Part shown: in pieces, positions 3,740 to 46,990 of the stretch
Numbering within the stretch: the first letter of the stretch is position 1
How the letters are laid out: each line of letters begins with the position of its first letter
Assembly (NCBI RefSeq): GCF_025024155.1
Contig: NW_026251751.1
Location: forward strand, 186,001-250,000
Direction: 5' to 3'
DNA length: 64,000 nucleotides
Source of the DNA: Gamsiella multidivaricata
Taxonomy: Eukaryota; Mortierellomycota; Mortierellomycetes; Mortierellales; Mortierellaceae
Notes under the pieces: model-generated
The model's database searches: none
The model's input: the letters and a program-made list of their open reading frames with translations, nothing else
Told to the model about the DNA's origin: nothing
Program-made: the position numbers and the translations under genes

Positions 3740-3940
3740 GCAAGTAGATCGAGACTCGCAGTGTCATGAATGAGTCCATATGCAGAGGAATAGTGCTTAC
3801 CTTGCAGGCGTTACGTTACGGTTACGGTTCGACTTGAGTGTTGTGGTGCTGCGCCACTCTGTCCTTCTCCTTTGCCTCTTTTGTGCTCCTTTCTGGACCT
3901 CAACTTTCTTCTTCCTTCTGTCTCCCTCATCCTCCTCCTC

Positions 3941-3988
<48 letters not shown>

Positions 3989-6510
3989 GTTTTTTTTTTT
4001 TTTTTTTTTCTTTCTTTTTCATTTTTCATTTTTTTTGTCTTTTTTTTTTTTTTTTTTCTTTTTTTTTTTTTCGGTGTTTTTATACAGCTGTCGCTGCCTG
4101 CCCTTCCCTCCTTTGCTCCTCTTGTACTCTCCCATCAACCCTTCTTAGCCCCCCATCCATTGCACTCCGCCCGCACTCCTTTTGCTATCCCCCTCACCAT
4201 TCTTCCCCATCATCTATGACTTTACCCCATTCGCCCTCTCCCTCTTGTGCCCATACACACTGGTCATCCCCCGCAGAGGACCCAGCCTCGCGACCACCAA
4301 ACCCCGAGGGTTCGGGGCCGTCTCCCCTCAGCTGAGAGAGGGTGGTCTGCTGTGCGGTCACTGACAGCACTGCCCCTGCCTCCTCTCTACCCGCTCCACC
4401 TCTACCTTGAACCCATGGCGCACTTACCTCTTTGCATGTGTCCACCCTAGGACTAGGATCCTTGATCGATCGACGCGCTCTCTCCCTCTCGCTGCCCAGC
4501 TGGGGAGCATTACTAGGCCTGATCTTGCCGAGACATCGCCGCTACCACGAATGGATCAGTTAAATAGTGTGTCAGTATATCGCTGTTTTCTGCGTGCTAA
4601 ACTCAGCACACATACATCTCTTTATCCAAGAAGACACGCGCAAACGTACCTTTGTCTTCTATCTGTCATAGTAGTTTGCCGACCATGGATCCGCCGGTGT
4701 GCTACCTCAAAGACGAAGCCATCTCTGTCGAAGGTCTGTTCCAGAGTCCCTTACTAGGATCAGGACTGCTGGACATCCCTTGACCATGATGTCTTCGCTC
4801 CGAGCCTCACAGTCAGCTGGCCTATGTGTCGGCGAGTGTCCCTTCGCACGACCGTGGTCGAGTCCCCCCAGGACGATGAACCTGGATCAAGTCCAGGATC
4901 GGGGAAAACGGCTGGGACGCTGTCTCAGCATCAGGCCGTGCATCCAACCGGGCGAGCAAGAGAGAGCGTGGGCACGGCGGCGATCTATAGAATCCCTGGA
5001 CACAGCAAAAAGTAAGTGCCTTAGTTTGACCCCAGGAACAAGGAGGGTGGACAGGAGAGAGCCGGCTAGGGTGCAGCACTGGGCGACCAGCACAGCAGGC
5101 ACCCAATCCCAGCTGGGATCAACAGCCCCTCAGCCTCGAGGTCACTGGATCGCGAGAGGGCTCATGCGAGTGAGACCAAGTGCGCAGAGACACTCCAAGG
5201 GAGGGGGTATTTTTTAGATGGGGTAAGGGCAATCATTGATGACAGGGAAGGAGGTGGGAGGGTTGAGTGGGGCGGTGGAAGAGAGGAGGGGATGGAGAGT
5301 ACTTAGCTTTGAATATTTCAATTTGCTTGGTTTGCTTGGTTCACTTGATAGGCTTGACGGGCTTGATGGAATTGCCATGGCCCGGCGAGTCTGGCTCGCC
5401 TACCAGGCTGGGCGGAGCGAGCCAGGGCCTCTTCTCAGCCGAGACTGACAGAGACAGAGGCCAGTGGCTAGAGGAGAAGCAGTTCAGACAGCAGAAGACA
5501 AGAGGACAGTCAGCGTGTGAGTGTGTGAGAAAAGGAACACAGGCACCAAAGTTGACTCCCAGTACAGCAACAGCGAACGGTGCATGTCAAACATACCTTT
5601 GTGACCATCTGGCTCGCTCTTCTTGACCATGGCGAGTCCCGCTGGACTGGGCCATGTTGTACCTGTGGATGTTGTAACGGACCAGCTGATATGGTCGGCT
5701 AGAGGTGCGGACCTTTCTTTGCTAGAAAAGAGGCGTTGACACACAAAAACAAGTGCAGAAAGAGACTACGCCATGAGGATCGAGCCACAAACATAGACAC
5801 AATCTATGGCACCAGGCACAAGGCACCAAGCACCAGGCACAAACAAAAAAGAAAAGAAAGACGAGCAGTGCCACTTTGCAAGGAAAGAAGACCAGGAACA
5901 TACCTTTGTGGACTCGACCGGTCATCGCTGTGGTCGTCGCTGCGGTCCTACTGCGCTGCTGTTGAGGATTGCTGCAGTGGAAATGACGGGCGAAGCAGCC
6001 TAAAGATGCGAGAAATATACAAAGTGGGCTCAGACACTAGTACAAACACGCACAGCCCCAATGGGCTAGAAGAGAACATCCTGCATAAACACAATGAGCA
6101 AAAGCACAATGAGCAACCTCATGAGTGTCGTAACATACCTGGACGATGCTGCCTGGCCATAACATCGAGTAACAGAGTGCACTTTGGTACGGGCGCATCG
6201 GTGGATGTGTGGTTTGGAAGGGTGGAGGAGAGTGTGGGAAAAAGAAAACAGCTGCCCGCAGGAGAATTTTGAATGGAAGGCCACGCGCCAAAATGTAAAC
6301 AAACGAAAATCAAAATGAAGGTGGACGCGTCGAGTGACGTTCTTCATCACCCAAGGGGCGTGTCCTCGCAGTGCGCACAAGTAACATGAACCTACAGTCA
6401 GAGCGCCGTCTGTACATACTCTATCCTTTAATCCTACAAGACCACTGTTGCTGTGCTTTAAGCATAACATCCCTGGGTTTATTATGAATGATAGTCTAAC
6501 GCAATGCGCT
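3740..6510 (-). repeat. Unclassified repeat, copy A (inverted relative to B and C)
   Basis: About 2.8 kb that match, in inverse orientation, 44230-46990 (copy C) and in part 36417-38478 (copy B). Copy A is visibly more diverged from B and C than those two are from each other. On the minus strand it carries strong donor-like sites preserved in all complete copies, for example CACAAAG|GTATGTT and GCAAG|GTAAGCAC. Pyrimidine-rich CTAG/CAG acceptors lie downstream. No reverse transcriptase, transposase, integrase, terminal repeat or target-site duplication was seen, so the class is unknown. It contains the T tract at 3946-4077. Confidence 0.75.
3946..4077 (+). repeat. Long T-rich tract within repeat copy A
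   Basis: About 130 bp almost wholly T with scattered C, G and A. It corresponds to the A/G-rich tract at about 46661-46835 in copy C. Long Phe-, Leu- or Lys-rich frames here are artefacts of the tract. Confidence 0.9.
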
Positions 6511-6849
6511 GGTGTTTTTCAAACGGTGGTGTCGTTGCACACTTTTTGAGTGCGGCCAGGGCACGTTGTCTTTCAAATAAGATTGCCTGCCAAAAAAGTA
6601 ATAAAAAGTACAACACGTCCCCATTTTACTATCCCGCCCCTTATTGATCCTAATCCTGCACAGGCTCCCGAGGTCTAGAGATCTACAGTACACCGACCCC
6701 TTGGATCCAATTTGGAGACAAAGCCTTGCCATACTTCTTTGCCATTTTCTCCTGCCATTTAATGGGACCCAAAGTTGCGGTACCTACGCGAGCGATACCT
6801 ATGCGGGCGAAACTTAAGCGGGCGATCCTCTTAAGACACCAGGTGCGGA

Positions 6850-7165
6850 GGCTCACGCGGCGGAGGGAGAGCGATTGCAGAGTTGGAGATACACCCAGAG
6901 AGATGGAAATGATCCATGCTTTGTATCCAGTATGAAGGCTCTGACATGTCGGCTGTATATGTGAAGCCCTGGATAGTTATCTCCATTGTAATGGCTAACG
7001 AGGATCCTTTCGTAGAGATAGGGGCTCCAGACGGCATTCCAGGTACGACTGTGCACATTGACCACCGCGAACGGAAGTGATTCATAATTCGTACTCTTGG
7101 ATTGTGCCAACATCATATCGTCCATGGTTTTAGTGCGCGCTGTATCATGCAAATAGTTTTTTATA
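6850..7165 (-). pseudogene. Truncated F-box N-terminal fragment (left arm)
   Basis: The minus strand reads TWNAVWSPYLYERILVSHY, then GLHIYSRHVRAF, the F-box and first repeat of the family, before stopping. Relative to the right-arm counterpart (42893-43255) about 240 bp are deleted between two GTGCACA-like sites, removing the start and most of the F-box. The rest of the gene is absent. Confidence 0.65.
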
Positions 7166-7198: not shown

Positions 7199-9000
7199 TT
7201 AAAACACAAGGTGTCCGTCCTTATTGATAACGGCATTGATAAAATAGACACCTCGCGAGGAAATATAGCTGAACCCACCCGCCACAATCCAGTTCGGGAA
7301 CAATGCCGCGCCACGCTCCTGGGCCATTTCTCCTGCCTTCTGAATTATGCTACTGCTATAGTCATTTGACTTGACTGGAACAAACAGAACAACCTTTCGA
7401 AGCTTCGGCGCAAACGAAAAGTCCTCCAAGATTTCAGATGTCATCGCATCCCCCCCGAGTTCGAGACCGAGGAGGGAAGTGAACGAGCACAGCCGCTCCC
7501 TGATCAACTCCTGGTCCTCAAGCGTGTATGGTTTAAGGGGGGGTAAATTTGCTTGTCTCCAACCTACACCGTACGGCCGGGGTTGATAGTCGAGTGGTTG
7601 GATATCCATATGCAGCCTCTCCAGCACCTTGGCACAAGGCCAGGGCTTGCACCCCTTGAAAAGCTCGATTGTACCGGCTCGAGTGCCCAACAGGTTCAAA
7701 CTGCGTAGGAGAGGACAGTTCTCTAATATCTCGATAGCACTATGGCTGGTGATATGAAGACATCCCTCCACATCGAGTTCAACAAGGCTATGCGAGGACC
7801 CTGCTGAAGTGAGTGTTGGAGGGAGACGTGCCAATTGATGGAGTGCCAAGTCCCCAAATTCCGTGTGTTTAACGCTGACCATTTGCAGCCCATGGTTGAC
7901 CCGCATCACCTCTGCAAACGCCTCGTCCGTTGTAGGCGGTATGAGCTTGGCAATAAACTTCTTGAGGTTCGGGCATGATCTTGACACTGCGTTCAAGTAC
8001 CCCGAATCACTGACTTGAAAACCGCGTCCGATGACTGAGACGCGCAAATCAAGCTCGATCTCTTGGACGCTGGCTTGATTATCGAACATACAGTCCCAAT
8101 CCTGAGGGCCGAAGTTGCCCTCACCACTGATCTTGACTTTCTTGAGATTTGGTGTGTGCTGAAAGAGACGGCGGACGCAAGGATGTGGCTGTTTCGAGTC
8201 GTCCAAGCAGGATTGTCGTGGTCCCAACATCACACTGTTCCAGCTCGACGCTCGGAACGGCATGCTTACCCAACTCAATACTCGGAGCGAGGTGCTTGTC
8301 CAGCCGTCATCGTCCACTTTGACCAACTCTGGTACGGCATCGGCTACCAAACTGCTGCTTTTGATGCCATCAATCTCCTCGACTTTGGCCTCGTCAAGTT
8401 CCTCGACTAATAGGTTGATTGTCAAGGCCAGTGACTGGAGTTGAGAACATGATTTAAGCACGAAAAGAATATCGTCGATGCGGACATCTGTCAGGACATT
8501 CCAGTAAAAGTCCTCCAGGTGCTTGAATGCAGACACAGGAGTCATCTGGCACTCCAATGGCTTTAGCGAGTGTTGCTTCAAGGTGATATGCAGAACCCGA
8601 AGCTGCGGTGTTATCTCTGCGAGCTCCTGAGGTTGCAAAGTGCTCAGTTTTGTGCAGTGGAGGAAGAGCGAGTGTAGGCTGGTGGTAAAGTTGAGAAGGA
8701 AGGCGAGATTATTCCATTCTATGGAGAGGAGCTCGAGACTCTTGACATGATGGCCGTATGAGTGCATCTTGGGATAGCTGCGAGTCTGCTGATACTCGCA
8801 GAAAGATAGCTTTTCATAGAGATAGGGAACCCAAATAGTATTCCAGGTATGGTTGACACGGATGGCGGGCTTAAGGTCATTCTGTGTGAGATAGCCAGCG
8901 AGGAGGCATTGAAGTTCAGGGATAGAAAAGAAGGTATCCTGGGGGGCCTTGGTGTATCGATGTCGACAATGCAGTTGTCGGATTTGTTGGCCTTGGGCAT
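7199..9000 (-). pseudogene. F-box/LRR protein gene with a 1-nt frameshift near the start (left arm)
   Basis: The long frame encodes an F-box-like segment (FFSIPELQ, then RVNHTWNTIWVPYLYEKL), leucine-rich blocks and the family C-terminus ending PNWI...HLVF at TAA 7199-7201. It is the left-arm twin of the intact gene at 40839-42650. The start MPKANK lies at 9000 in another frame. At the codons just after VDIDTPR this copy has cccccc where the twin has the 7-nt atctccc, so the start and the body are out of frame. The first ATG in the body frame falls after the F-box (KMHSYG). It is either a recent pseudogene or a homopolymer sequencing error. F-box proteins act as substrate adaptors of SCF ubiquitin ligases; the target is unknown. 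Confidence 0.7.
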
Positions 9001-9200: not shown

Positions 9201-10638
9201 ATGCCTAATTTGGCACCAACCGTTCCAGACCATGCTCAAGCAGTTAGGAGGACCAAGAACGACAACAGCGTTGACACTGCTCCAAAGATGTCTCAAGACA
9301 TTGTCTTCTCGATCCCGGAGCTTGTTCACTTAATCGCCAACCACCTGGCAACACGCGATCTCACGGCCCTCATCCGTGTCAACCGTACCTGGAATAGCAT
9401 TTGGGTTCCTTATCTCTACCAAAGTCTATACTTTTCCCTATATTAAACCAACGCCTATCTAAAGATCAGCAAATATGGCGAGCATGTCAGGACTGGAACT
9501 ATCCTTATCACAGCCATCGGACTGTCAGATGGCATCTGTTGCGACCCTCAAGAACCTGGAGGACTTTTCCTGCTGCGTTAATAGCAAAGCCCACATCGAC
9601 GATATTCTTTTGGTGCTCAGAGCTTACCGTCAGCTCAGGTCGTTGGTTCTGCAAAAGGTCATCATAGTAGAGGAGCTCAAGGACACCCGCGACGAGCAGG
9701 AGCCAGAAGAGAAGAAGGAGGAGCGCACTGGGTTGATCAGGGTGGATGACGAAGGTTGGATGAACACATCGCTTCGGTCGTTGACCTTGAGCACTGTGAC
9801 ATGGGACTCTGAGGATTCGAACACTACGCATCCTCACTTTAGTCGTTTTTTTCAGCACCTTCCCAACCTCGAGTGCCTTAAACTCGACCAGAGGAGTAAT
9901 ATCATCGCTCAGGCCTGGAGAGATATCTTCGAAAATCGAACCATCCTGCAGGGAACCATACCAGAGTCCCATGCTGCCACCATCGATCCCGACCATTGCA
10001 TTGGAAGCAGCATCAGGGACGACACTTCAGCGACGGGTGTGATGGTGACGGTGGCGCGTAAAGACCAGGCTCTCACACAACTGACACGTATGCCTCGATC
10101 AGTCCATGTATCGCCAGGAATATCACACAGACTGGTTACCTTTGATATTGAAGGGTGTATATTATTCAACAGCATCAATGCTTCTATACTTCTGGAGAAC
10201 TGCACGATCTTGCGCAAATTGAACTTGTTGGGCACGATGGCGGGGACAATCGAGCTCTTCAAGGGGAGTAAACCGTGGCCATGCGCCAACGTGCTCGAGA
10301 ACCTGTGTATGGACATCCAACCGCTCGAGTATCAACCTCTGCAGTATGGAATGCCCGGGCATCCGCTCAGGCTGTACACGTTCGGGGAAATGCAGTCAAT
10401 TCGAGGACGGCTGTGTTCGTTCACATCCCTAGTTGGTCTAAAGCTCCGGGGCGAAGCATTAACGCTTGATATGATCCAGGATTTTTCATTTGCGCCAAAC
10501 CTTCGGGTAATGCACCTAGGGTTCCCAATGAGCGTGAACAACATCGATACACTTCAAGAGGTGGCTCTCAAGTACGGCCAAGCCCTGTTCCCGAACTGGA
10601 TGTGTCGTCTGATATCACTTACTCCTCCTGGCGTCTAG
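9201..10638 (+). pseudogene. F-box/LRR protein gene broken by a stop, a deletion and a C-terminal frameshift (left arm)
   Basis: Starts with ATG at 9201 (MPNLAPTVPD) and has a good F-box (IVFSIPELVHLIA, then RVNRTWNSIWVPYLYQSLYF). Compared with its twin at 38990-40657, CAA (Gln) after SLYFSLY has become TAA. A stretch of well over 100 bp after the KYGEHV codons is then missing and the frame changes. The downstream frame (about 9475-10638) is open and family-like through LRLYTFGEMQSI and LFPNW. One T is then lost (ATTGTG to ATGTG), replacing the normal C-terminus with MCRLISLTPPGV. Three independent lesions argue for a true pseudogene. It is divergently arranged with the neighbour at 7199-9000, 200 bp between starts. 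Confidence 0.8.
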
Positions 10639-11065
10639 CCGTCGCGGTTACAGCTTATCTCGATGAAGAGAGTTTTATGTTCCGATGGCCATGATGAGCC
10701 CTAGATTGGGAAGCTGTGATACATCCATGTAAACGGACCATCGAACTGAGAAGTCCAACTAGCCGAGCTTAACAAGTCGAAGACTCGATAAGATATCTAA
10801 TCTAGCTTAGAACAAGAATCAGACAGCCCTCTGTAATCCAGGTTTGTTCTCTATAGCTCAAACAAAAAGTGTGCATGCACATACGGCATTCAGAGATCGG
10901 GCTTGCTTCATGTAACAAAAAGGAGGCGCTGTGCTGACAGTCTACGAGTCGCGGTACTTTGCCTACGCTCGATCAAAATAGCAGCTCCACAAAGAGACTC
11001 CTACACGTGATATCTTGAGCTGGGCTGCACTGTTCCTCCACGCTTTTGTCCTTTCCTCGACCTTG
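10628..11065 (+). repeat. F-box 3' tail repeat, copy T2; also VPS9 upstream region
   Basis: Same ~440-bp sequence as 1-440. It ends about 65 bp before the VPS9 ATG, so the proximal VPS9 upstream region lies in or next to repeated sequence. No clear TATA box was seen. Confidence 0.7.
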
Positions 11066-11129
11066 ATGGCGACAGACGACCAGCTTTCTTCTCCAATTCT
11101 CCTTTCATTCATACGCTTTATAGTCAATA

Positions 11130-14083
11130 ATGTCTTCACGGGCGGGTGATGAGCAGGACACACTCCAGGATGCAATGCGGCAAACGACATTGAATGACAA
11201 AGACCACGCAACCAGTAACGCCAAGACCACAGCCGAGAAAGACACTAGTGCGAGCCCAGCTCTGGATAAGAGTGAACAGGAAGGTGGACAAGACAAAGTC
11301 GAACCAAAGACCGAGGGCAGCGATGAGGATGAGCAACACAGTAAGAAGGAAGGTGATAGTACCTCACCTAAGGATGTCGCCACCAGCAGCGTCTCATTCG
11401 CAGAAGGCATATCGAATGCTGATGATGGGGCTCAAAAGCCCGGTCTGACACGCCGAAAATCTTCCTTGAGTACCATCGGGTATGTTTTACAGATGGATTA
11501 CTGAAGTTTATTGATTGAGCAGAAAGCTGTCGCGTAGCATCTAATCAGGAGTCTCGTTGGTCTTTTGTCCCACACAGGAGTCGATTGAGACGAGCCTCGT
11601 CGATGGAGAAGCACGTCACGATCGTGGACGCGACGGACGACACCACTGCCGGCGAGGAGAAGAGCAGCGCTACCGACGAGCCATCGGAGGAGAGGAACAA
11701 AGATGATGAGGCCACGAAAGAAGAGTTGGCAAAGATCCTGATGCAATTTGATCCGCTTGCGGAGTCCAAGCAACAACAAGGTGAGAACGCTGCCTCCATT
11801 TATTGGGCCCCATGCTATATGCAACATCACTGCTAGAGCCTAATCATTTTAATCTTGTGTTGTGAATAGAAAATAAACCATTAGAGACAGTCATTGAAAG
11901 AGGCATAACTGCTAGTAAGCCGGTCTTGAATCCTTCAGAGACCGTTGCAGCTTCACCAAATCTCTCGCTTTCATCCTCATCCTCGCCAAAAACACCACAG
12001 TTGATGGATTCGCCAAAGATTTCACACGACGTCAAGGTTGCAATGGCCGAGAAGGCTAAAACCGGATCGTCCAAGAAGAGGAGTGAGAGTCGGCAAAAGA
12101 GCTCCCTATCATCAGAGACACCCCGGAGCAGCGAGAAAGGGGCTAGTAATGGAAACAACAGCAACAGCGGCAATCGATCTGAGCCCCCGAAACCTAAAGA
12201 CATTCCGTTCGACTTTCACAAGTTCCTGGAGCAAATGCGGCACAGGAGTGCAGTTCCCATCACGCGCTACTTCCACAGGTGAGGAGCGGATCGAATTGTT
12301 TGAGTGCTCATACATTTGACTGAGTTCATGAAGACGTACTTGTCGCTGACATTCTGGTTTGTGGGGTTCAGCTTCTTGAAAGAGTTTGATAGAAAACCTT
12401 GGACAGTGAACGAGCAGATCAAGATTATCCACGACTTTTTGGACGTAAGTCGTTGCTGTTGTATTCATGCGCGGAAAAAATCCCTCAGAAGGAAGGCGTG
12501 GAAACAGGCGTTAACATACTTATTTTTCGGTTCTATTTTTTGTACAGTTTATTACGGGTAAAATGGAAATGTGTGAGCTATGGAGGAATGCATCCGACCA
12601 GGAGTTTGAGAACGTGAAGGAGGGCATGGAGAAGCTGGTGATGAATCGTCTCTTCGCCTAGTAAGTCCTGCACGCGAGAGGCCTATCCACTTGCAACTTG
12701 ACGATGTGCTTACCAACATTTCAACTATTTATTTACGTCCATAGTACTTTTTCGCCTTCGACAACCGATGATGCTGAGCGGGACGAGGTTCTCACTCAAA
12801 AGATACGGATTTTCCGGTGGGTCAGGGAAGAGCACTTGGATATCCCTTACAGCCCGCACAATGAGGCCTATCTGAACAACGCCCAAGCAGGTAGGAGCAC
12901 AGTGGATTCTTTGGGGCTTTTGCGGACAGACAGGGGCGGACGAATGTACTTACGGATGGTTTTTTTTCCTTCTGCGTTGTTAGAGCTAAAAAAAATCAAC
13001 AGTTACAAGGCCCCGCGCGATAAGGTCATTTGCATTTTGAACTGCTGCAAGTTCATCTTTAGTAAGTGGCTGCAATTGGCCTGAATATGCTGTCTGGTGG
13101 TCCACAGCTGGTACTCATCGTGGTATATGTCTCTAACTTTGTACGATAGCGCTCATCCGGAGATCAGAGGGCAACTCCAAAGGCGCAGATACATTCCTTC
13201 CGATCCTCATCTATGTTGTTTTACGTGCCAACCCTCCAAATCTCGTCTCTAATGTTCAGTATGTATCCATTTCGATACACGGAGGAAAAAATGATAATGA
13301 TGCTTCACGTGGGATATTATAGACCCTAACAGCATTCGATATTGTCTTTTGGGCTGTTTGTTGCATAATTGCACTAGATATATTTCGCGGTTCAGGAACC
13401 CGGAAAAGCAGCAGGCTGAGGCCGGGTATTATCTGGCTTCATTGATGGGGGCGATTTCATTTATCGAGAACCTGGAGGCGAGCTCGCTGTCGATCACACC
13501 CGAGGAGTTTGATCAACAGATTGAGAAGACAATGAATGAGCTCAGTCAAGAAAAGGCAGACGCCATGGCAGCAGCGGCCGAGGCGGCCAGGTCCGCAGCA
13601 GCAATCTCAGCAGCAGCTTCACCGGAGCCAACGATTGGACATAGGAAGCAGAGCAGTAAATTGGCGACGCTCGTTGCCGGGACTGCGGCGATGAGGAATA
13701 GTCAGCAGCGACCAGCTATCAATGAGAAGCAGTATTTGACGGCAGAAGCAGCGCAGCATCAGCAGCACCAACAATATCAGGAAAAGAGCTCACGTCAAAA
13801 TGGCCGGGATTCTACAAGAGCATCGCCAGCGCCTTCAGGGTCTTCGATTTTAAATCCAGCGGCGTCTTTAATCGAGCGTGGGGCAAATTTCGCGACGAAG
13901 ACGATTCAGAAGCCGCTGGATCTGATCGAAAGAATGTTTCAGGATAGCGGCGATGAGGAAGAGATGGCGAAACCGTACCCGCCTCGTCCTGTACAACCAC
14001 AGCAGCAATCACAGCATTTTGGCAGATCTGCTCCTCCGTTGGCTCATCAATCACAGCAGCAGCAGCATTATCATCATCAGCAA

Positions 14084-14119
<36 letters not shown>

Positions 14120-14272
14120 GTTCAGAGGCCGGATACATTAGACAGGGACGATTCGTTCTCGGAATTTGTGTATGTGCCCGCAGGACAACAGATCCAACAG
14201 CCTGTACCACAACAGTCTGGCGGGTTCTTTCAGCAGCAACGAGGATACCCAGGGCTAGGAGTTCAACACGCT

Positions 14273-14308
<36 letters not shown>

Positions 14309-29003: not shown

Positions 29004-29239
29004 AATCTAATAGAGAATCGATGAGATAGCCTGTAAGAATTTGCGCTTCACTGAACAATGATCGTACATTCTTGTTGGCAACGGTCGGTCGTGTTTGGTA
29101 TAAAGTGCTTTCCCCTGATGCACTGTTTGGAGGAAGGGGAAATGGGTCCTTTCAGGTTTCCTCAATGGCCTATAATAGCGACCAGATCCTCACAACAGCG
29201 AGTTTTCAACTTTGTCCGGTTGTATTCCCTGCTGATGAT

Positions 29240-29270
<31 letters not shown>

Positions 29271-33597: not shown

Positions 33598-33605
33598 TAT
33601 AAAAG
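33598..33605 (+). promoter_or_regulatory. TATA box candidate for the zinc-finger gene
   Basis: TATAAAAG, a good TATA match, 207 bp upstream of the chosen ATG at 33812, leaving room for an untranslated leader. Most genes in this window lack such a clear box. Confidence 0.5.
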
Positions 33606-33811
33606 GAACCACCACTGCCTTCCTCCTTCCGTCTTTTTTTGTTCTATTCTCTCTTAATCATCATTCTTCACGCAAACCAAAGACGCAGCTTGCAAACAGA
33701 CACGCAACTCGCAAACGCAGAAACAACCGCAAACAACCTTCTCTCCGAACGGCATCCCCACACACCTCCACGCTTCACCACTTGAACTCGACACCGCTCG
33801 ACACCTCTTCA

Positions 33812-36416: not shown

Positions 36417-38478
36417 TGCGTTAAAGCATCATTCATAATAAGCCCATTGATGTTATGCTTAAAGCACAGCAACAGTGACCTTGTAGGGTTAAAGGATAGA
36501 CGCATGTCCAGACAGCGCTCTGGTTGCGGATTCATGTTACATGTGCCCACTGCGAGGACACGCCTTTGGGTGATGAACATCACTCGACGCGTCCATCTTT
36601 ACATTTTGACGCGTTGTCTTCCATTCAAAATTGTCCCACTGGCGACTGTTTTCTTTTTCCCATACTCTTCTCCACCCTTCCAAACCACACATCCACCGAT
36701 GCACCCGTACCAAAGTGCACTCCGTTACTCGATGCTATGGCCAAGCAGCATCTTCAAGGTATGCTACAGCACTCATGGGGCTGCTCATTGTGCTTTTGCT
36801 CATTGTGTTTGTGCCTGTGGTTGCAGGATGTTCTCTTGTAGCCTATTGGGGCTGTGCGTGTCTGTACCAGTGTCTGAGCCCACTTTTTATATTTCTCGCA
36901 TCTTTAGCCTGCTTCGCCCGTCATGTCCACTGCAGCAATCCTCAACAGCAGCGCAGTAGGACCACAGCGACGACCACAACGATGACCGGCCGAGTCCACA
37001 AAGGTATATTCTTAGTGTTCTTTCCTTGCAAAGCGGTACTGTTCGTCTTTCTTTTCTTTTTTGTTTGTGCCTGATGCTTGGTGCCTTGTACCTGGTGGTT
37101 CTGCTTCTGCGCCTAGTGCCATAGATTGTGTCTGTGTCTGTGACTCGATCCTCATGGCGTAGTCTCTTTCTGTACTTGTTTTTGTGTGTCAACGCCTCTT
37201 TTCTAGCAAAGAAAGGTCCGCACCTCTAGCCGACCATATCAGCTGGTCCGTCACAGCAACCTCGGGTACAACGTGGCCCAATCCAGCAGGACTCGCCATG
37301 GTCAAGAAGAGCGAGCCAGATGGCCACAAAGGTATGTTTGACATGCACCATTCGCTGTTGTTGTACTGGGAGTCAACTTTGGTGCCTGTGTTCCTTTTCT
37401 CACACACTCACACACTGACTGTTCTCTTGTCTTCTGCTGTCTGAACTGCTTCTCCTCTAGCCACTGGCCTCTGTCTCTGCCAGTCTCGGCTGAGAAGAGG
37501 CCCAGGCTCGCCCCACCCAACCTATTGGGCAAGCCAGACTCGCCAGGCCATGGCAATCCCATCGAGCCCATCAAACCCGTCAAGTGAACCAAGCAAATCA
37601 AGCAAATTGGAACATTCAAAGCTAAGTACTCTCCATCCCCTCCCCTCTTCCACCGCCCCACTCAACCCTCCCACCACCTTCCCCGTTGTCAATGATTGCC
37701 CTTACCCCATCCAAAAATACCCCCTCCCTTGGAGTGTCTCTGCGCATTTGGTCTCACTCGCATGAGCCCTCTCGCGATCCAGTGATCTCGAGGCTGAGGG
37801 GCTGTTGATCCCAGCTGGGATTGGGTGCCTGTTGTGCTGGTCGCCCAGTGCTGCACCCTAGCCGGCTCTCTCCTGTCCACCCTCCTTGTTCCTGGGGTCA
37901 AACCAAGACACTTACTTTTTGCTGTGTCCAGGGATTCTATAGATCGTTGACGTGTCCGTGCTCTCTCTTGCTCGCCTGGTTGGATGCACGGCCTGATGCT
38001 GAGACAGCGTCCCAGCCGTTTTCCCCGATCCTGAACTTGATCCAGGTTCATCGTCCTGGGGGGACTCGACCACGGTCGTGCGAAAGGACACTCGCCGACA
38101 CATAGGCCAGCTGACTGTGAGGCTCGGAGCGAAGACATCATGGTCAAGGGATGTCCAGCGGTCCTGATCCTAGTAAGGGGCTCTGGAACAGACCTTCAAC
38201 AGAGATGGCTTTGTCTTTGAGGCAGCACACCGGCGGATCCATGGTCGGCAAACGGCTACTGACACATGGAAGACGAAGGTACGTTTGTGCATGTTCTCTT
38301 GGATAAAGAGATGTATGTGTGCTGAGTGTAGCATGCAGAAAACAGCGATATACTGACACACTATTTAACTGATCCATTCGTGGTAGCGGCGATGTCTCAG
38401 CAAGATCAGGCCTAGTAATGCTCCCCAGCTGGGCAGCGAGAGGGAGAGAGCGCGTCGATCGATCAAGGATCCTAGTCC
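36417..38478 (+). repeat. Unclassified repeat, copy B (truncated)
   Basis: Direct repeat of copy C (44230-46990), almost base-identical over long stretches (for example 37184-37900 against 44984-45700, offset 7800 bp) and more distant from copy A. Splice-like signals are kept: CACAAAG|GTATATTC near 37003, TTTTCTAG near 37205, CACAAAG|GTATGTTTG near 37330 and CTCCTCTAG near 37460. It breaks off at about 38478, where copies A and C continue. There it joins a fragment of the VPS9 5' end at a ctaggactagg-like junction. Confidence 0.75.
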
Positions 38479-38563
38479 TAGTGCCTTCCTCGGCTGTGGT
38501 CTTGGCGTTACCGGTTGCGTGGTCCCTGCCATTCAGCGCCTCACCACCCGCCCGTGAAGGCAT
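38144..38563 (-). other. Chimeric reading frame: VPS9 N-terminus joined to repeat copy B
   Basis: 139 codons from ATG 38563. The first ~30 residues (MPSRAGG, then DHATGNAKTTAEE) are the VPS9 start with an internal deletion. The rest (TRILDRSTRSLPLAAQLGS onward) is antisense repeat B sequence. The upstream sequence is the VPS9 upstream region, so transcription is plausible. No function can be assigned. Confidence 0.5.
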
Positions 38564-38640
38564 TATTGACTATAAAACGTATGAGTGAAAGGAGAATTGG
38601 AGAAAAAAGCTGGTCGTCTGTCGCCATCAAGGCCGAGGAA
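38479..38640 (-). pseudogene. Displaced 5' end of VPS9
   Basis: Inverted copy of the region around the VPS9 start (11044-11240): same leader (tatagtcaataatg), same opening codons for SSRAG-like residues, an internal deletion of about 40 bp, then the codons for DHATxNAKTTAE. The rest of VPS9 is absent. It marks the outer edge of the inverted duplication. Confidence 0.75.
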
Positions 38641-39055
38641 AGGACAAAAGGGTGAAGGAACAGCCCAGCTCAGCTCGAGATATAACGTGTAGGATTTTTT
38701 TTTTTGAGCTGCTATTTTGATCAAACGTAGGCGAAGTACCGCGACTCGTAGACTATCAGTTACAGCACCTCCTTTTTGTTACATGCAGCGAGCTTGATCT
38801 CTGAATGTCGTATGTACACTCCTTGTTTGAGCTATAGAGAATAAGCTGGGTTGCAAAGGATCGTCTGATTCCTGTTCTAAGCTAGATTAGGTACCCTATC
38901 GAGTCTTCGATTTATTAAGCTCGGCCGATTGAACTTCTCAATTCGATGGCCCACTTATATGGATGCAGTACGGTTTCTCAATCTAGGGCTCATTTTGGCC
39001 ATTGGAGCATATAACTCATTTCATCGAGATCAGCTGTAACCGCGACGGCTGGAGG
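38640..39055 (-). repeat. F-box 3' tail repeat, copy T3
   Basis: Inverted counterpart of 1-440 and 10628-11065. It contains the last codons of the F-box gene at 38990-40657 and its 3' flank, and borders the displaced VPS9 5' end exactly as T2 borders VPS9 itself. Confidence 0.75.
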
Positions 39056-40657
39056 CCAGGGGGAGTAAGTGATATAAGACGACACAATCCAGCTCGGGAA
39101 CAGAGCCTGGCCGTACTTGAGAGCTACCTCTTGAAGTGTATCGATGTTGTCCACGCTTTGAAACTCTAGCCTCACTACCCGAAGGTTTGGCGCAAACGAA
39201 AGGCCCTGGCTCATATCAAGCGTTAATGCTTCGCCCCGGAGCTTTAGACCAACTAGGGATTTGAACGAACACAGCCGTCCCCAAATTGACTGCATTTCCC
39301 CAAATGTGTACAACCTGAGCGGATGTCGGGGCCTTCCATACTGCAGAGGTTGATACTCGAGCGGTTGGATATCCATACACAGGTTCTCGAGCACGTTGGC
39401 GCATGGCCACGGTTTACTTCCCTTGAAGAGCTCGATTGTCCCCGCCATCGTGCCCAACAAGTTCAATTTGCGCAAGATCGTGCAGTTCTCCAGAAGTATA
39501 GAAGCATTGGTGCTGTTGAATAACATACACCCTTCAATATCAAAGGTAACCAGTCTGTGTGATATTCCTGGCGATACATGGACTGATCGAGGCATACGTG
39601 TCAGTTGTGTGAGAGCCTGGTCTTTACGCGCCACCGCCACCGCCACCATCACATCCGTCGCTGAAGTGTCGTCCCTGATGCTGCTTCCGACGCAATGGTC
39701 GAGACCGATGGTGGTAGCATGGGACTCTGGTATGGTTCCCTGCAGGATGGCTCGATCTTCGACGATATCTCTCCAGGCCTGAGCGATGACATTGCTCCTG
39801 CCTCTGAATTTAAGGCACTCGAGGCTGGGAAGGTGCTGGAAAAGACGACGAAAGTGAGGATGCATAGTGTTCGAATCCTCAGAGTCCCATGTCGCAGTGC
39901 TCAAGGTCAATGACCGAAGAGATGTGTTCATCCAACCTTCGTCATCCACCCTGATCAACCCAGTGCGCTCCTCCTCCTCTTTTTCTGGCTCCTGCTCGTT
40001 GCGGGCGTCCTTGAGCTCCTCTATTATGATGACCAACGACTTGAGCTTACGGCAATCTCTGAGCACCAAAAGAATATCGTCAATGCAGAGGTTGGCAGTG
40101 GTGTTCCAGGAAAAGTCCTCCAGGCTCTTGAGAGTCGTTACAGGAGTCATCTGACAGTCCAACGGCTGCGGTAAGGATCGTTTCAGGGTGATATTCAAGG
40201 TTCGAATCTGTGGCACCATCTCCGTGATCTGCTCGAGCTGTGAAGTGCACAAGTCCATTGATCGGAGTGTGAGCGATTGCAGGTTGTTTGTAAAGTAGAG
40301 AAAGTGCTGGGTGCTGGCCCATGTTGTAAACGAGAGACAGAGGGTCTTGACATGCTCGCCATATTTGCTGATCTTTAGATAGACGTTGGTTTGATATAGG
40401 GAAAAGTATAGACTTTGGTAGAGATAAGGAGTCCAAATGCTATTCCAGGTACGGTTGACACGGATGAGGGCCGTGAGATCGCGTGTTGCCAGGTGGTCGG
40501 TGATTAAGTGAACAAGCTCCGGGATCGAGAAGACAATGTCTTGGAACATCTTTGGAGCAGTGTCAACGCTGTTGTCGTTCTTGGTCCTCCTAGGACGTAG
40601 AATCATCCGATTAACAGCTTGAACACGGTCTGGGACGGTCGGTGCCAAGATGGGCAT
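38990..40657 (-). CDS. F-box/leucine-rich protein, intact (right arm)
   Basis: 555 aa from ATG 40657 (MPILAPTVPD), chosen because the same start is present in the left-arm twin; a longer frame upstream has no ATG support. The F-box lies at about residues 45-90 (IVFSIPELVHLITDHLATRD, then RVNRTWNSIWTPYLYQSLYF). Leucine-rich blocks follow (LQSLTLRSMDLCTSQLEQI, LRTLNITLK-like, IDDILLVLRDCRKLKSLV, VDDEGWMNTSLRSLTL), then the conserved IEGCMLFNSTNASILLENC and LNLLGTMAGTIELFKGSKPW. Expected to be a substrate receptor of an SCF (Skp1-cullin-F-box) ubiquitin ligase. It is divergent with the next gene across 181 bp. The C-terminus reads PAVAVTADLDEMSYMLQWPK, matching the copy at the left window edge. 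Confidence 0.78.
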   Translation of the reverse strand: MPILAPTVPDRVQAVNRMILRPRRTKNDNSVDTAPKMFQDIVFSIPELVHLITDHLATRDLTALIRVNRTWNSIWTPYLYQSLYFSLYQTNVYLKISKYGEHVKTLCLSFTTWASTQHFLYFTNNLQSLTLRSMDLCTSQLEQITEMVPQIRTLNITLKRSLPQPLDCQMTPVTTLKSLEDFSWNTTANLCIDDILLVLRDCRKLKSLVIIIEELKDARNEQEPEKEEEERTGLIRVDDEGWMNTSLRSLTLSTATWDSEDSNTMHPHFRRLFQHLPSLECLKFRGRSNVIAQAWRDIVEDRAILQGTIPESHATTIGLDHCVGSSIRDDTSATDVMVAVAVARKDQALTQLTRMPRSVHVSPGISHRLVTFDIEGCMLFNSTNASILLENCTILRKLNLLGTMAGTIELFKGSKPWPCANVLENLCMDIQPLEYQPLQYGRPRHPLRLYTFGEMQSIWGRLCSFKSLVGLKLRGEALTLDMSQGLSFAPNLRVVRLEFQSVDNIDTLQEVALKYGQALFPSWIVSSYITYSPWPPAVAVTADLDEMSYMLQWPK

Positions 40658-40838
40658 GTTTTTCAGGGAATCGAAAGAGCTGAGATAAAAGACATTTGTG
40701 GCGGTAATTATATATCTCATGCGGTGAGCCCAGCAGAGGTCAATCAACTCATCCCTCTCCGTTGCCACCACCATCTTTTTACCCCTTTTCTTCTCACCAT
40801 TTTTCTTGTCCACCTCTCTCTTCCCCTCCCCGTCAGCC
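40658..40838. promoter_or_regulatory. Shared divergent promoter of the intact F-box pair
   Basis: 181 bp separate the two ATGs. The left-arm pair has an equivalent 200-bp spacer (9001-9200) that is clearly related. No TATA box seen; pyrimidine-rich leader (tttctttccc-like) on the plus side. Confidence 0.5.
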
Positions 40839-42650
40839 ATGCCCAAGGCCAACAAAATCGCATCAAATCCTGCCCCAGGGACCCTTCACCGAAGTCTGCG
40901 GCTCAGAACATCCGATAACTACATTGTCGACATCGATGTACCAAGGATCTCCCAGGATACCTTCTTTTCTATCCCTGAACTTCAACACCCCCTCGCCGAC
41001 TATCTCACACGGAATGATCTTAGGGCCGCCATCTGCGTCAGCCATGCCTGGAATACCATTTGGGTTCCCTACCTCTATGAAAAGCTATTCTTCCGCGAGT
41101 ACCAGCAGACTCGCAGCTATCCCAAGATGCACTCATACGGCCATCATGTCAAGAGTCTCGAGCTCCTCTCCATAGAATGGAACAATCTCGCCTTTCTTCT
41201 TAACTTTACCACCAGCCTACATTCGCTCTTCCTCCACTGCACAAAACTGAGCACTTTGCAACTTCAGGAGCTCGCAGAGATAGCACCACAGCTTCGAGTT
41301 CTGCATATCACCTTGAGGCAATACCCGCCAAAGCCATTGGAGTGCCAGATGACTCCTGTGTCTGCATTCAAGCACCTGGAGGACTTTTACTGGAATGTCC
41401 TGACAGATGTCCGCATCGACGATATTCTTTTCGTGCTTAAATCATGTTCTCAACTCCAGTCACTGGCCTTGACGATCAGCACACTAGTCGAAGAACTTAA
41501 CGAGGCCAAAGTCGAGGAGATTGACGGCATCAAAAGCAGCAGTTTGATCGCCGATGTCGTGCCAAAGTTGGTCAAAGTGGACGATGACGGCTGGGCAAGC
41601 ACCTCGCTCCGAACGTTGAGCTGGGGCAGTGCTATGTTGGGACCACGACAATCCTACGACTCGAAACAGCCACATCCCTGCATCCACCGCCTCTTTCAGC
41701 ACACACCAAATCTCAAGAAGGTCAAGGTCAGTGGCAAGAACAACATTGGCGCTCAGGATTGGGACTGCATGTTCGAGAATCAAGTCAGCATCCAAGAGAT
41801 CGAGCTTGATTTGCGCGTCTCAGTAACCGAAGGCGGTTCTCCAGTCGGCAATTCGGGGTTCTTGAACGCAGTGTCAAAATCATGCCCGAACCTCAAGAGG
41901 TTTATTGCCAAGCATATGCCATTTACAACAGACAAGGCGTTTGCGGAGGTGATGCGGGTCAAACACGGGCTTCAAAAGGTCAACGTCAAATACACGGAAT
42001 TCGGGGACTTGGCACTCCATCAATTGGCACACCTCCCTCCAACACTCACTTCAGCAGGGACCTCGCATAGCCTTGTTGAACTCGATGTGGAGGGATGTCT
42101 TCAGATCACCAACCATAGTGCCATTGAGATATTGGAGAACTGTCCTCTCCTGCGCAGTTTGAACCTATTGGGCACTCGAGCCGGTACAATCGAGCTTTTC
42201 AAGGGGTGCAAGCCCTGGCCTTGTGCCAAGGCGCTGGAGAGGCTGCATATGGATATCCAACCACCCGACTATCAACGCTGGCGGCGCAGTGTTGGATCTA
42301 AACAAGCAGATATGCCCCCTCTTAAACCATACGCACCTGAGGACCAGGACTTGATCAGGGAGCGGCTGTGCTCGTTCACTTCCCTCCTCGGTCTCGAACT
42401 CAAGGGTGAAGCGATGACATTTGACATCCTGGAGGACTATTCGTTTGCGCCGAAACTTCGAAAGGTTATTCTGTGTGCTCCGTATAAGTCAAATGACTAT
42501 AGAATGAAGCAAGAGATGAGAATAATGACCTTGGAGCGCGGCAGGGCATTGTTCCCGAACTGGATTCTGTCGAGTAAGGACAACTATATTTACTCGCGAC
42601 CCACCAGTGTGTTCACTGCCATTGTCAGTAGGGACACTTTTGTATTCTAA
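40839..42650 (+). CDS. F-box/leucine-rich protein, intact (right arm)
   Basis: 603 aa from ATG 40839 (MPKANKIASNPAPG). The F-box is at about residues 35-85 (FFSIPELQHPLADYLTRNDL, then VSHAWNTIWVPYLYEKLFF). Leucine-rich repeats follow (LHSLFLHCTKLSTLQLQELA, LRVLHITLRQ, IDDILFVLKSCSQLQSLALT). The distal part has LVELDVEGCLQITNHSAIEI, LENCPLLRSLNLLGTRAGTI and the family end LFPNWI. Presumed SCF substrate adaptor. It is a diverged paralogue of its head-to-head partner and a close duplicate of the frameshifted 7199-9000 gene. Its codons for VDIDVPRISQDTFF keep the base lost in that twin. Confidence 0.78.
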   Translation: MPKANKIASNPAPGTLHRSLRLRTSDNYIVDIDVPRISQDTFFSIPELQHPLADYLTRNDLRAAICVSHAWNTIWVPYLYEKLFFREYQQTRSYPKMHSYGHHVKSLELLSIEWNNLAFLLNFTTSLHSLFLHCTKLSTLQLQELAEIAPQLRVLHITLRQYPPKPLECQMTPVSAFKHLEDFYWNVLTDVRIDDILFVLKSCSQLQSLALTISTLVEELNEAKVEEIDGIKSSSLIADVVPKLVKVDDDGWASTSLRTLSWGSAMLGPRQSYDSKQPHPCIHRLFQHTPNLKKVKVSGKNNIGAQDWDCMFENQVSIQEIELDLRVSVTEGGSPVGNSGFLNAVSKSCPNLKRFIAKHMPFTTDKAFAEVMRVKHGLQKVNVKYTEFGDLALHQLAHLPPTLTSAGTSHSLVELDVEGCLQITNHSAIEILENCPLLRSLNLLGTRAGTIELFKGCKPWPCAKALERLHMDIQPPDYQRWRRSVGSKQADMPPLKPYAPEDQDLIRERLCSFTSLLGLELKGEAMTFDILEDYSFAPKLRKVILCAPYKSNDYRMKQEMRIMTLERGRALFPNWILSSKDNYIYSRPTSVFTAIVSRDTFVF

Positions 42651-42892
42651 GTACGATCTATATAATTAAAAGACAAACTCGTCTATTTGTATGGTACAGC
42701 GCGCACTAAAACCATGGACGATACGATGTTGGCACAATCCAAGAGTCCGAATCAAGGATCGCTTTCGTTCCCGGTGGTCAATGTGCACATCGCACAGGCC
42801 TTGAATGTCCATCCTTTTTGCGGTCGCTTAAACTTGTATAATGCCTCTGCCCACTGTTACTCCTCTCTTTTTATTCCGTTTTCGGTTTCCAA

Positions 42893-43255
42893 AGATGTCC
42901 GCGGAAACAGAAAGCAACACTATTGGCAGCACGCCGCTCAGAACACCTGTTGAGATGGTCTTTTCGATCTCCTAGCTCGTGCACATCATCGCCCGTAACC
43001 TATCGCAACACGATCTTACAACCGCTACCCATATCAGTCATACCTGGAATGCCGTCTGGAACCCTATCTCTACGAAAGGATCCTCGTTAGCCATTACAAT
43101 GGAGATAACTATCCAGGGCTTCACATATACAGCCGACATGTCAGAGCCTTCATACTGGATACAAAGCATGGATCATTTCCATCTCTCTGGGTGTATCTCC
43201 AACTCTGCAATCGCTCTCCCTCCGCCGCGTGAGCCTCTGCACCTGGTGTCTTAAG
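42893..43255 (+). pseudogene. Truncated F-box N-terminal fragment (right arm)
   Basis: The ATG-headed frame reads MSAETESNTIGSTPLRTP, VEMVFSIS, then a TAG, then LVHIIARNLSQHDLTTATHI and SHTWNAVWNP. After that the frame slips (ISTKGSSL where PYLYERIL is expected). Only the F-box and first repeat are present. It corresponds to the more deleted fragment at 6850-7165. Confidence 0.65.
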
Positions 43256-43524
43256 AGGATCGCCCGCTTAAGTTTCGCCCGCATAGGTATCGCTCGCGTA
43301 GGTACCGCAACTTTGGGTCCCATTAAATGGCAGGAGAAAATGGCAAAGAAGTATGGCAAGGCTTTGTCTCCAAATTGGATCCAAGGGGTCGGTGTGCTGT
43401 AGACCTCTAGACCTCGGGAGCCTGTGCAGGATTAGGATCAATAAGGGGCGGGATAGTAAAATGAGGACGCGTTGCTGTACTTTTTTTTTTTTTTTTGGCA
43501 GGCAATCTTATTTGAAAGACAAAG

Positions 43525-44170
43525 GTCGTCCAGCATCGGAACAACCACAATGTGCATAGCAATAAAAACAGGAAATGCTGTTGACTCATACTTAACCTGC
43601 TACTGCCTTGACTCAAAGCTCGATCACTGAAAGCTACATACATTCATATGTGTTACCGACATTAGCCATCTCTCCAAAATCCACTCCATCACCAACAGTT
43701 TTGTGTCCCCGCACCAATAATCACATATCAATAGAGCTTGGCTTTTGAGCGCCATGCCGAAATCAAGTCTAGAATAAACTGGATGTCAGAAACATGGTCA
43801 AACCCACATAGCATTTGAAAAGAGCTTAGTCAAATGAACTCTCCAACACCCTCTCGTCGTCGTCAAATATATATTTTGACGAACGGACTGGATCGGTGCT
43901 ACACAGGCTCTCGCATAGCCGGGCCTCATTGTTGGTCGGAGAGGATATCTCTCTTCTTTCTCCACCCACTTGCGTAAACTACATTATCGACGCTTGAGGG
44001 TTTCCCTTCTGCTTGGTCCATCGCCGATGCTCGAGACTCTATATTCAAACAAGAAACCGTCTCCTTCTGTAGTGAACATTACCGTACTTTTCAGATCGAT
44101 TTTTTATTATTCTCCCCACAACCCAAGGTGATATTTTTCGGAACCATTGACCTATATAATGGGAAATATG
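43525..44170. other. Segment present only in the right arm
   Basis: The left arm runs directly from tttgaaagacaa to the sequence ctggccgcactcaaaaagtg (around 6555-6575, minus strand). In the right arm these two sites are separated by about 650 bp. No coding frame, terminal repeats or target duplication was recognised. It is an insertion in the right arm or a deletion in the left. Confidence 0.55.
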
Positions 44171-44229
44171 CATATCCTGGCCGCACTCAAAAAGTGTGCA
44201 GCGACATCACCGTTTGAAAAACACCGGCG

Positions 44230-46661
44230 CATTGCATTAAAGCATCAATCATAATAAGCCCATTGATGTTATGCTTAAAGCACAGCAACAGTGATCTTGT
44301 AGGGTTAAAGGATAGACGCATGTCCAGACAGTGCTCTGGTTGTGGATTCATGTTACTTGTACGCACTGCGAGGACACGCCCCTTGGGTGATGAAGAACGT
44401 CACTCCACGCGTCCACCTTCATTTTGATTTTCGTTTGTTTACATTTTGACGCGTTGTCTTCCATTCAAAATTCTCCCGCGGTTGTCCTCTTTTCTCACAC
44501 TCTCCTCCACTCTTCCAAACCACACATCCACCGATGCACTCGTGGCATAGTGCCCTCCGTTGCTCGATGCTGTGGCCAGGCAGCATCGTCCAGGTATGTT
44601 ACGACGCTCATGAGGTTGCTCATTGTGCTTTTGCTCATTGTGTTTGTGCCTGTGGTGGCAGGATGTTCTCTTCTAGCCTATTGGGGCTGTGCGTGTCTGT
44701 ACCAGTGTCTGAGCCCACTTTTTATATTTCTCGCATCTTTAGCCTGCTTCGCCCGTCATGTTCACTGCAGCAATCCTCAACAGCAGCGCAGTAGGACCGC
44801 AGCGACGACCACAACGATGACCGGCCGAGTCCACAAAGGTATGTTCTTGGTATTCTTTCCTTGCAAAGTGGTACTGTTCGTCTTTCTTTCTTTTTTTGTC
44901 TGTGCCTGATACTTGGTACCATAGATTGTTTATGTGTCTATGACTCGATCCTCATGGCGTAGTCTCTTTCTGTACTTGTTTTTGTGTGTCAACGCCTCTT
45001 TTCTAGCAAAGAAAGGTCCGCACCTCTAGCCGACCATATCAGCTGGTCCGTCACAGCAACCTCGGGTACAACGTGGCCCAATCCAGCAGGACTCGCCATG
45101 GTCAAGAAAAGCGAGCCAGATGGCCACAAAGGTATGTTTGACATGCACCATTCGCTGTTGTTGTACTGGGAGTCAACTTTGGTGCCTGTGTTCCTTTTCT
45201 CACACACTCACACACTGACTGTTCTCTTGTCTTCTGCTGTCTGAACTGCTTCTCCTCTAGCCACTGGCCTCTGTCTCTGCCAGTCTCGGCTGAGAAGAGG
45301 CCCAGGCTCGCCCCACCCAACCTATTGGGCAAGCCAGACTCGCCAGGCCATGGCAATCCCATCAAGCCCATCAAACCCGTCAAGTGAACCAAGCAAATCA
45401 AGCAAATTGGAACATTCAAAGCTAAGTACTCTCCATCCTCTCCCCTCTCCCACCGCCCCACTCAACCCTCCCACCACCTTCCCCGTTGTCAATGATTGCC
45501 CTTACCCCATCCAAAAATACCCCCTCCCTTGGAGTGTCTCTGCGCATTTGGTCTCACTCGCATGAGCCCTCTCGCGATCCAGTGATCTCGAGGCTGAGGG
45601 GCTGTTGATCCCAGCTGGGATTGGGTGCCTGTTGTGCTGGTCGCCCAGTGCTGCACCCTAGCCGGCTCTCTCCTGTCCACCCTTCTTGTTCCTGAGGTCA
45701 AACCAAGGCACTTACTTTTTGCTGTGTCCAGGGATTCTATAGATCGTCGCCGTGCCCACGCTCTCTCTTGCTCGCCCGGCTGGATGCACGGCCTGATGCT
45801 GAGACAGCGTCCCAGCCGTTTTCCCCGATCCTGAACTTGATCCAGGTTCATCGTCCTGGGGGGACTCGACCACGGTCGTGCGAAAGGACACTCGCCGACA
45901 CATAGGCCAGCTGACTGTGAGGCTCGGAGCGAAGACATCATGGTCAAGGAATGTCCAGCAGTCCTGATCCTAGTAAAGGACTCTGGAACAGACCTTCGAC
46001 AGAGATGGGTTCGTCTTTGAGGCAGCACACCTGCGGACCCATGGTCGACAAACTGCTATGACAAATGGAAGACGAAGGTACGTTTGCGCATGTCCTCTTG
46101 GATAAAGAGATGTATGTGCGCTGAGTGCGGCACGCAGAAAACAGCGATATACTGACACACTATTTAACTGATCCATTCGTGGTAGCGGCGATGTCCCTGC
46201 AAGATCAGGCCTAGTAATGCTCCCCAGCTGGGCAGCGAGAGGGAGAGAGCGCGTCGATCGGTCAAGGATCCTAGTCCTAGGGTGGACACATGCAAAGAGG
46301 TAAGTGCGCCATGGGTTCAAGGTAGAGGTGGAGCGGGTAGAGAGGAGGCAGGGGCAGTGCTGTCAGTGACCGCACAGCAGACCACCCTCTCTCAGCTGAG
46401 GTGAGACGGCCCCGAACCCTCGGGGTTTGGTGGTCGCGAGGCTGGGTCCTCTGCGGGGGATGACCAGTGTGTATGGGCACAAGAGGGAGAGGGCGAATGG
46501 GGTAAAGTCATAGATGATGGGGAAGAATGGTGAGGAGGGATAGCAAAACGAGTGCGGGCGGAGTGCAATGGATGGGGGGCTAAGGAAGGGTCGATGGGAG
46601 AGTACAGGAGGAGCAAAGGAGGGGAAGGGCGATGACAGCTGTATAAAAACACCAAGAAAGC

Positions 46662-46692
<31 letters not shown>

Positions 46693-46990
46693 AAGAACAA
46701 GAACAAGGAAACAAAAGAAAAAGGAAAAGAAAAACAAACAAAAAAAAAAGAACAGAAAGAAAGAAGAAAAAGAAGAAAAAGAAGAGGAGAAGGAGGAGGA
46801 GGAGGAGGAGGAGGAGGAAGACAGAAGGAAGGAAGGAAGTGGAGCTCCAGAAAGGAGCAAAGGAGAAGGACACAGTGGCGCCAGCACTACCACACTCAAG
46901 TCGAACCGTAACCGTAACCGCCAGCAAGGTAAGCACTATTCCTCTGCATATGGACCCATTCATGACACTGCAAATCTTGATCTATCTGCT
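44230..46990 (+). repeat. Unclassified repeat, copy C (full length)
   Basis: About 2.76 kb. The plus strand has a series of strong donor-like sites: CGTCCAG|GTATGTTAC near 44593, CACAAAG|GTATGTTC near 44838, CACAAAG|GTATGTTTG near 45131, GACGAAG|GTACGTTTG near 46078, AAAGAG|GTAAGTGC near 46300 and CAGCAAG|GTAAGCAC near 46928. Acceptor-like GGCAG (44660), CTTTAG (44750), TTTTCTAG (45005), CTCCTCTAG (45260) and GTGGTAG (46185) lie between. Joining them gives no single long ATG-headed frame, because stops occur in each frame before the join. It may be a spliced non-coding transcript, a decayed gene or a non-autonomous element. No mobile-element protein was seen. Confidence 0.7.
46661..46835 (+). 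repeat. A/G-rich tract in repeat copy C
   Basis: A run of about 28 A followed by GAACAA and GAAAAAG units and a (GGA)n run at about 46793-46818. Counterpart of the T tract in copy A; the length differs between copies. Confidence 0.9.

Follow-up and report, generated by a model that had tools for sequence, protein, structure and literature searches.

The two mirror-image arms of this locus probably belong to a low-copy segmental-duplication family, an F-box/LRR gene cassette that evolves by birth and death with gene conversion. The arrangement looks like ordinary gene-family duplication, not like a special inversion switch. The window (the whole stretch of 64,000 nucleotides that was analysed) corresponds to positions 186001-250000 of contig C119 in the 37.5-Mb, 180-contig assembly of Gamsiella multidivaricata. 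Its features are listed below; L and R denote the left and right arm, and I, III, IV, C114, C122 and C152 denote related copies elsewhere in the genome.

8..447, plus strand: block T belonging to the adjacent cassette I, oriented like the left arm
1459..3708, plus strand: block a, outward continuation of the left cassette, wholly or partly common to I, III, IV, C114 and C152
3709..11254, plus strand: left arm (copy L), with blocks b-E-C-F1-F2-T-V; matches 38471-47019 in inverted orientation
4152..4454, plus strand: conserved core of ~300 bp, common to 12 other loci without an F-box-pair match
4447..6516, plus strand: E block, left
6566..7051, plus strand: C block with F-box gene fragment, left (right counterpart 43035-43522)
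7199..9000, minus strand: F1 F-box/LRR gene, left, frame shifted near the F-box
9201..10638, plus strand: F2 F-box/LRR gene, left, with a TAA within the N-terminal part and a 158-bp gap
10625..11064, plus strand: T block (tail repeat), left (right copy ~38629-39053, third copy 8-447)
11065..11254, plus strand: V block, VPS9 5' end, first exon open from a presumed ATG at 11130 (the gene model is presumed)
11255..36403, no strand assigned: inner block with VPS9/CUE, OPT, GH63, Pho88 and C2H2 genes
36404..38481, minus strand: E3, an extra E copy abutting the right arm's inner end and joined to V at CTAG
38471..47019, minus strand: right arm, copy R, blocks b-E-C-F1-F2-T-V
38478..38628, minus strand: V, truncated VPS9 5' fragment in the right arm, from genome search and junction reading
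38990..40657, minus strand: F2 F-box/LRR gene, right, open frame of 555 aa
40839..42650, plus strand: F1 F-box/LRR gene, right, open frame of 603 aa
43523..44175, minus strand: segment of ~650 bp that L and C152 lack and R, I, III, IV and C114 carry
44220..46280, minus strand: E block, right, from self-BLAST and genome search

Global alignment placed L (3709-11254) and R (47019-38471) in colinear order and opposite orientation, with 6,700 of 7,368 paired bases identical (90.9%). A further 1,202 bases were unpaired in R only and 178 in L only, and identity varied along the alignment, with stretches of 150 columns lying between about 70% and 99%. Self-BLAST of the window returned four inverted matches: 44176-47019 with 6560-3709 (90.7%), 43035-43522 with 7051-6566 (97.1%), 40344-42789 with 9493-7050 (82.9%), and 38478-40186 with 11248-9493 (86.5%). 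The longest minus-strand self-match in 10 dinucleotide-preserving shuffles measured 16-34 bp. The window therefore holds two colinear copies in opposite orientation well above chance, that is, an inverted segmental duplication. An earlier note, made from the sequence alone, had described colinear inverted arms and had suggested comparing the window with itself; both self-BLAST and global alignment bore the description out, and the arms hold the content first listed for them (E and C repeats, F-box fragment, F-box pair, tail repeat and VPS9 5' end). Equally, the arms do bracket the block from VPS9 to the zinc-finger gene. Ten ORFs of the window were scanned, and those between the arms represented parts of the VPS9/CUE gene, an OPT transporter, a GH63 glucosidase, Pho88 and a C2H2 gene. 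Self-BLAST of the window detected no repeat of 100 bp or more within the inner block.

The same note had read the locus as a single two-armed inverted duplication, and this part needs revision. The inverted match near its left limit of ~3740 is real, but the left cassette runs outward to ~1459 through block a. This block is represented in C152 by a short piece and is missing from the right arm, which stops at 47019. On the right side, the third E copy E3 (36404-38481) adjoins the arm on its inner side and is oriented like the arm's own E. At least six other genomic places carry the cassette or parts of it. F-box/LRR gene remnants were also seen between cassettes I and L, at window positions 387-929 and 448-1459.

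In the whole assembly, the cassette was found complete or in part at at least eight places, five on C119 and one each on C152, C114 and C122. The genome was searched block by block with the best candidates scored, so that all copy counts are lower bounds; at the other copies, the flank beyond the matched blocks was examined over ~1.5-2.5 kb. Apart from the two arms, the copies are as follows.

C119:175766-186447, direct relative to L: copy I, just upstream of L
C119:109.1-115.7 kb, inverted relative to L: copy III, without the F-box pair
C119:274.8-283.7 kb, inverted relative to L: copy IV, with F1 and F2
C152:35.6-45.5 kb: copy with F1, F2, V and an extra E
C114:172.4-181.0 kb: copy with truncated F2
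C122:17.4-21.8 kb: copy with F1 and F2

Both F1 and F2 were present at no fewer than seven places (L, R, I, IV, C152, C122 and, with F2 truncated, C114), and E-C with at least part of a-b likewise at seven or more (L, R, I, III, IV, C152 and C114). Two extra E copies, at window positions 36404-38481 and C152:43764-45524, each lie beside a VPS9 fragment. More distant F-box relatives occur elsewhere in the genome, for instance on C117.

The F1 and F2 genes are arranged head-to-head. Both frames are open in R, and the pair in L is broken, with the F1 frame shifted near the F-box and F2 carrying an internal TAA and a deletion. F1 is open also in I, IV and C114; F2 is open also in I and, for the greater part of the gene, in C122. 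Gap lengths were divisible by three in 33 of 37 cases for F1 and 26 of 30 for F2, compared with 29 of 130 for b and E together. Pairwise dN/dS was 0.33-0.69 for F1 (21 pairs, with only partial frames of L, C152 and C122) and 0.51-0.88 for F2 (10 pairs cut to the start codon, with only partial frames of L and C152, and IV and C114 left out as broken). Judged by these substitution patterns, F1 and F2 are fast-evolving but constrained genes. Diversifying selection was considered and rejected, as dN/dS was below 1 in all 31 pairs, with intervals extending past 1 in four of them (F1 R-C152; F2 R-I, R-L and I-L).

The Pfam evidence for an F-box is weak. Right-arm F2 matched PF12937 with an E-value of 2.3e-4 at 21.3 bits, under the cut-off of 24.3. 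Right-arm F1 gave no Pfam match at 0.01, and the near-identical protein P0004 has an F-box match at E 0.046. An NCBIfam search with four proteins returned no match. A ten-sequence profile, on the other hand, matched FBXL2 (E 1e-10), FBXL17, FBXL3, TIR1, FBXL5 and SKP2 in the PDB. The predicted model showed alternating strands and helices at moderate confidence (mean pLDDT 64.8), and its best Foldseek matches were COI1, FBXL2 and TIR1 (E 2.3e-9 to 5.5e-7), with TM scores by query of only 0.26-0.44 and further LRR proteins lower in the list. The C-terminal leucine-rich repeat fold of FBXL proteins was thus recovered by both profile and model, and on these predictions F1 and F2 are F-box/LRR genes.

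Block V was found at three places, namely L, R and C152, and continues into VPS9 only at L. In R and C152, V breaks at the same base and runs into E through a CTAG overlap. This join is base-identical in the two copies (...GGCACTAGGACTAGGATCC...) and absent from L, which reads GACACTAGTGCGAG at the corresponding site in VPS9 and CCCTAGGACTAGGATCC at the b/E boundary. In L coordinates, position 11248 is connected to position 4447, which is how the ends would be joined if that segment had been duplicated in tandem or had formed a circle. As R and C152 share a V/E junction that L lacks, L is suggested as the source. L also has gaps of 247 bp and 158 bp, and none of the five other copies spanning each site has them. 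The direction and order of events are read from one assembly, and coding constraint presumably acts on V in L, so that its branch is not clock-like. About 65 bp separate the end of the T block from the presumed start codon of VPS9 (window 11065-11130), and the VPS9 upstream region would thus be made of cassette sequence.

Block trees (IQ-TREE, ultrafast bootstrap) conflicted among b, E, F1, F2 and T, and pairwise identities agreed with them. L paired with C152 in the E, F1 and T trees (support 100 each); in E, the closest relative of the left arm was the C152 copy with 98.5% identity, compared with 93.1% for the right arm. R grouped with the neighbouring E3 in the E tree (support 100). In the F2 tree L paired with R (support 100), and in the b tree R paired with IV (support 100) and L with I/III at a support of only 66.

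Exchange between copies was assessed by permutation of polymorphic sites (400 permutations, complete columns only). III and the extra E copy of C152 (C152_E2) were left out in all three regions, and C122, C114 and E3 in some. The test treats sites as exchangeable, and blocks that evolve at different rates may mimic tracts. Of the 15 pairs compared over b-F1, 6 had a global P ≤0.005; over F1-T, 3 of 15 had P ≤0.0125, and over E, 3 of 21 had P ≤0.025. None of the 400 permutations was as extreme as the tracts L/C152 5515-6062, L/I 3845-3977 and L/R 6848-7022 (all over b-F1) or R/E3 5312-5616 (over E). The tract R/C152 8422-8631 gave P 0.005 over b-F1 and 0/400 permutations as extreme over F1-T. 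Over E alone, the L/C152 tract was not significant (P 0.055). Together, the conflicting block trees and the significant conversion-like tracts indicate that the arms are mosaics.

Based on these results, we propose the following history. The family unit would be a head-to-head pair of fast-evolving F-box/LRR genes with its neighbour blocks a-b-E-C. The cassette beside VPS9 was probably copied elsewhere with the VPS9 5' end attached, following a join of tandem-duplication type at the 4-bp CTAG overlap, and its descendants would have landed in inverted orientation at the right-arm site and on C152. Later non-allelic gene conversion or unequal exchange may have partly homogenised the copies, and F-box genes appear to have been gained and lost since. 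The mirror orientation around the inner block would then be a by-product.

A single local inverted duplication that led directly from L to R, with the other copies older or separate and the arms able to flip the inner block, is unlikely. The colinearity over the full 7.4 kb and the V block shared by both arms would fit such an event, and so would the sister relationship of the arms in F2, which a direct duplication predicts and which counts against the family-first history. However, one event should have left the arms mutually closest along their full length, and L pairs with R only in F2. In contrast, E, F1 and T place L with C152, the b block of R pairs with IV instead of L, and R and C152 have in common both the V/E junction and the extra E that follows it, of which L has neither.

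Recombination between L and R could in principle invert the inner block. At ~27 kb, this block lies within the range of about 4.1-102.6 kb given for nine, mostly predicted, repeat-mediated inversions of Candida albicans in an excerpt of PMC6591007, and the repeats described there are similarly ORF-containing, low in copy number and separated by tens of kilobases. Their median identity, however, is 98.3%, and some of the inversions were checked by PCR (PMC6591007, same excerpt), whereas the Gamsiella arms are 90.9% identical and known from the reference orientation. Furthermore, the longest exact tract between L and R measured 176 bp; six tracts reached 100 bp and none 200 bp. The arms therefore look like a mediocre recombination substrate. 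A second inverted pair on the same contig, formed by III and I, contains exact tracts of 1,398 and 986 bp and would, by length and identity, be the better substrate for inversion. This pair comprises C119:109473-115658 (loci L008, L037 and L047) and 175821-182038 (L007 and L046), is 95% identical over 6.3 kb and brackets ~60 kb.

A more far-reaching proposal, which we consider decidedly improbable, is that the V/E junction is the signature of a unit that can be used repeatedly (E - F-box pair - VPS9 tail - E). Recombination from one E to another would copy this unit from chromosome to chromosome, making it a composite duplication vehicle that needs no transposase. Such a unit would spread fast-evolving F-box receptor pairs and, upon inversion of the inner block, could supply the core trafficking gene VPS9 with a new upstream region.

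Transport of the cassette by a transposable element, of which E with its conserved core would be the mobile part, is very improbable. Three observations point in that direction: E or the core is present at dispersed loci without an F-box-pair match, R and C152 share an E-genes-E layout in direct orientation, and in IV (11054), C122 (11059) and I (11064) the matches to L have inner ends no more than 10 bp apart. Despite these close inner ends of three copies, the terminal repeats of a DNA transposon or retroelement were not found: a search of two stretches yielded no long terminal inverted repeats, only nine pairs of 14-23 nt with 73-88% complementarity. The outer ends differ as well, with R stopping at 47019 and the others continuing. 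The similarity of I and C122 persists past block T, and the endpoints of the two extra E copies do not coincide. None of six stop-to-stop frames in E and b contained a transposase, integrase or reverse transcriptase domain, and the core shows no codon-position signal, with stops in 15 of the 24 protein-level matches to it.

A protein-coding nature of E was rejected, as the same six frames had no credible Pfam match; the sole match was a weak one to wnt (E 0.027). Substitutions in E showed no codon-position bias in a test that was near flat in F1 and F2 too and thus has little power. Single bases made up 76 of the 130 gaps in b and E, many of them probably in a poly-T run. Overall, E is not obviously coding as far as its sequence can be read. 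In the dispersed copies of its core, polymorphic columns were spread evenly over codon positions (120, 107 and 107). Diverged matches to the core were located at 12 loci on C1, C34, C38, C57, C63, C102 (2), C146 (2), C161 (2) and C169. An old, dispersed repeat forms the E core, and many of its copies have stops or shifted frames. Rfam gave no match at the gathering score in the window. Insertion targeted to a tRNA was rejected, since no tRNA was found in the window (bacterial settings).

An assembly artefact, with one arm a false duplicate or an uncollapsed haplotype, is scarcely credible even though there is one assembly of the contig and the relevant proteins of the second annotation set lie on a contig of 3,245 bp, shorter than an arm. 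Of the paired sites, 9% differ between the arms, which also have unequal indels and different flanks. Right-arm F1 recurs in the second annotation set (locus tags BGZ54, P0004) with 2 differences in 603 residues, and P0002, a piece of 343 aa listed on a contig of likewise 3,245 bp, matches right-arm F2 without a difference; both speak against an artefact in the right arm.

The reading of the arms as members of a duplicated cassette family has parallels in other organisms. F-box expansions in Caenorhabditis likewise involve mainly local duplication, loss and changes in gene structure, according to the part of PMC8665587 considered here. In Gamsiella, a soil fungus of the Mortierellaceae, the duplicated unit is instead a head-to-head F-box/LRR pair with a multi-kilobase neighbour lacking a coding signature, and it occurs in both orientations and on several contigs. 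Similarly, ectopic gene conversion in Aspergillus, as outlined in an excerpt of PMC12844118, involves regional paralogues that exchange tracts, with gene loss and new structures. That case concerns other genes in another fungus, and the tracts reported here were deduced within one genome without an outgroup. Nothing on this locus or on Gamsiella F-box clusters appeared among the top titles and abstract openings of a literature search, which does not imply absence from print.

The locus shows at base resolution, in an early-diverging fungus, one way in which F-box/LRR genes multiply. A pair of genes has been duplicated with its neighbours into both orientations, has taken the beginning of a core gene with it, and has been reshuffled by apparent conversion. 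It also shows that an inverted repeat within a single window should not be taken as a two-part structure or an inversion switch.

Two further observations were made. The core at window positions 4152-4454 and 46271-46600 is nearly invariant among the cassette copies, with 8-9 variable sites per 200 bp at 4159-4459 compared with 15-60 in the other 200-bp windows over 4459-6959. At C114:172424-172810 (locus L013), where F2 is truncated, the models of both annotation sets fuse the F-box part to an unrelated C-terminal part; the resulting proteins (P0011 and P0012) possibly represent a chimeric gene that arose by duplication, or else a prediction error.
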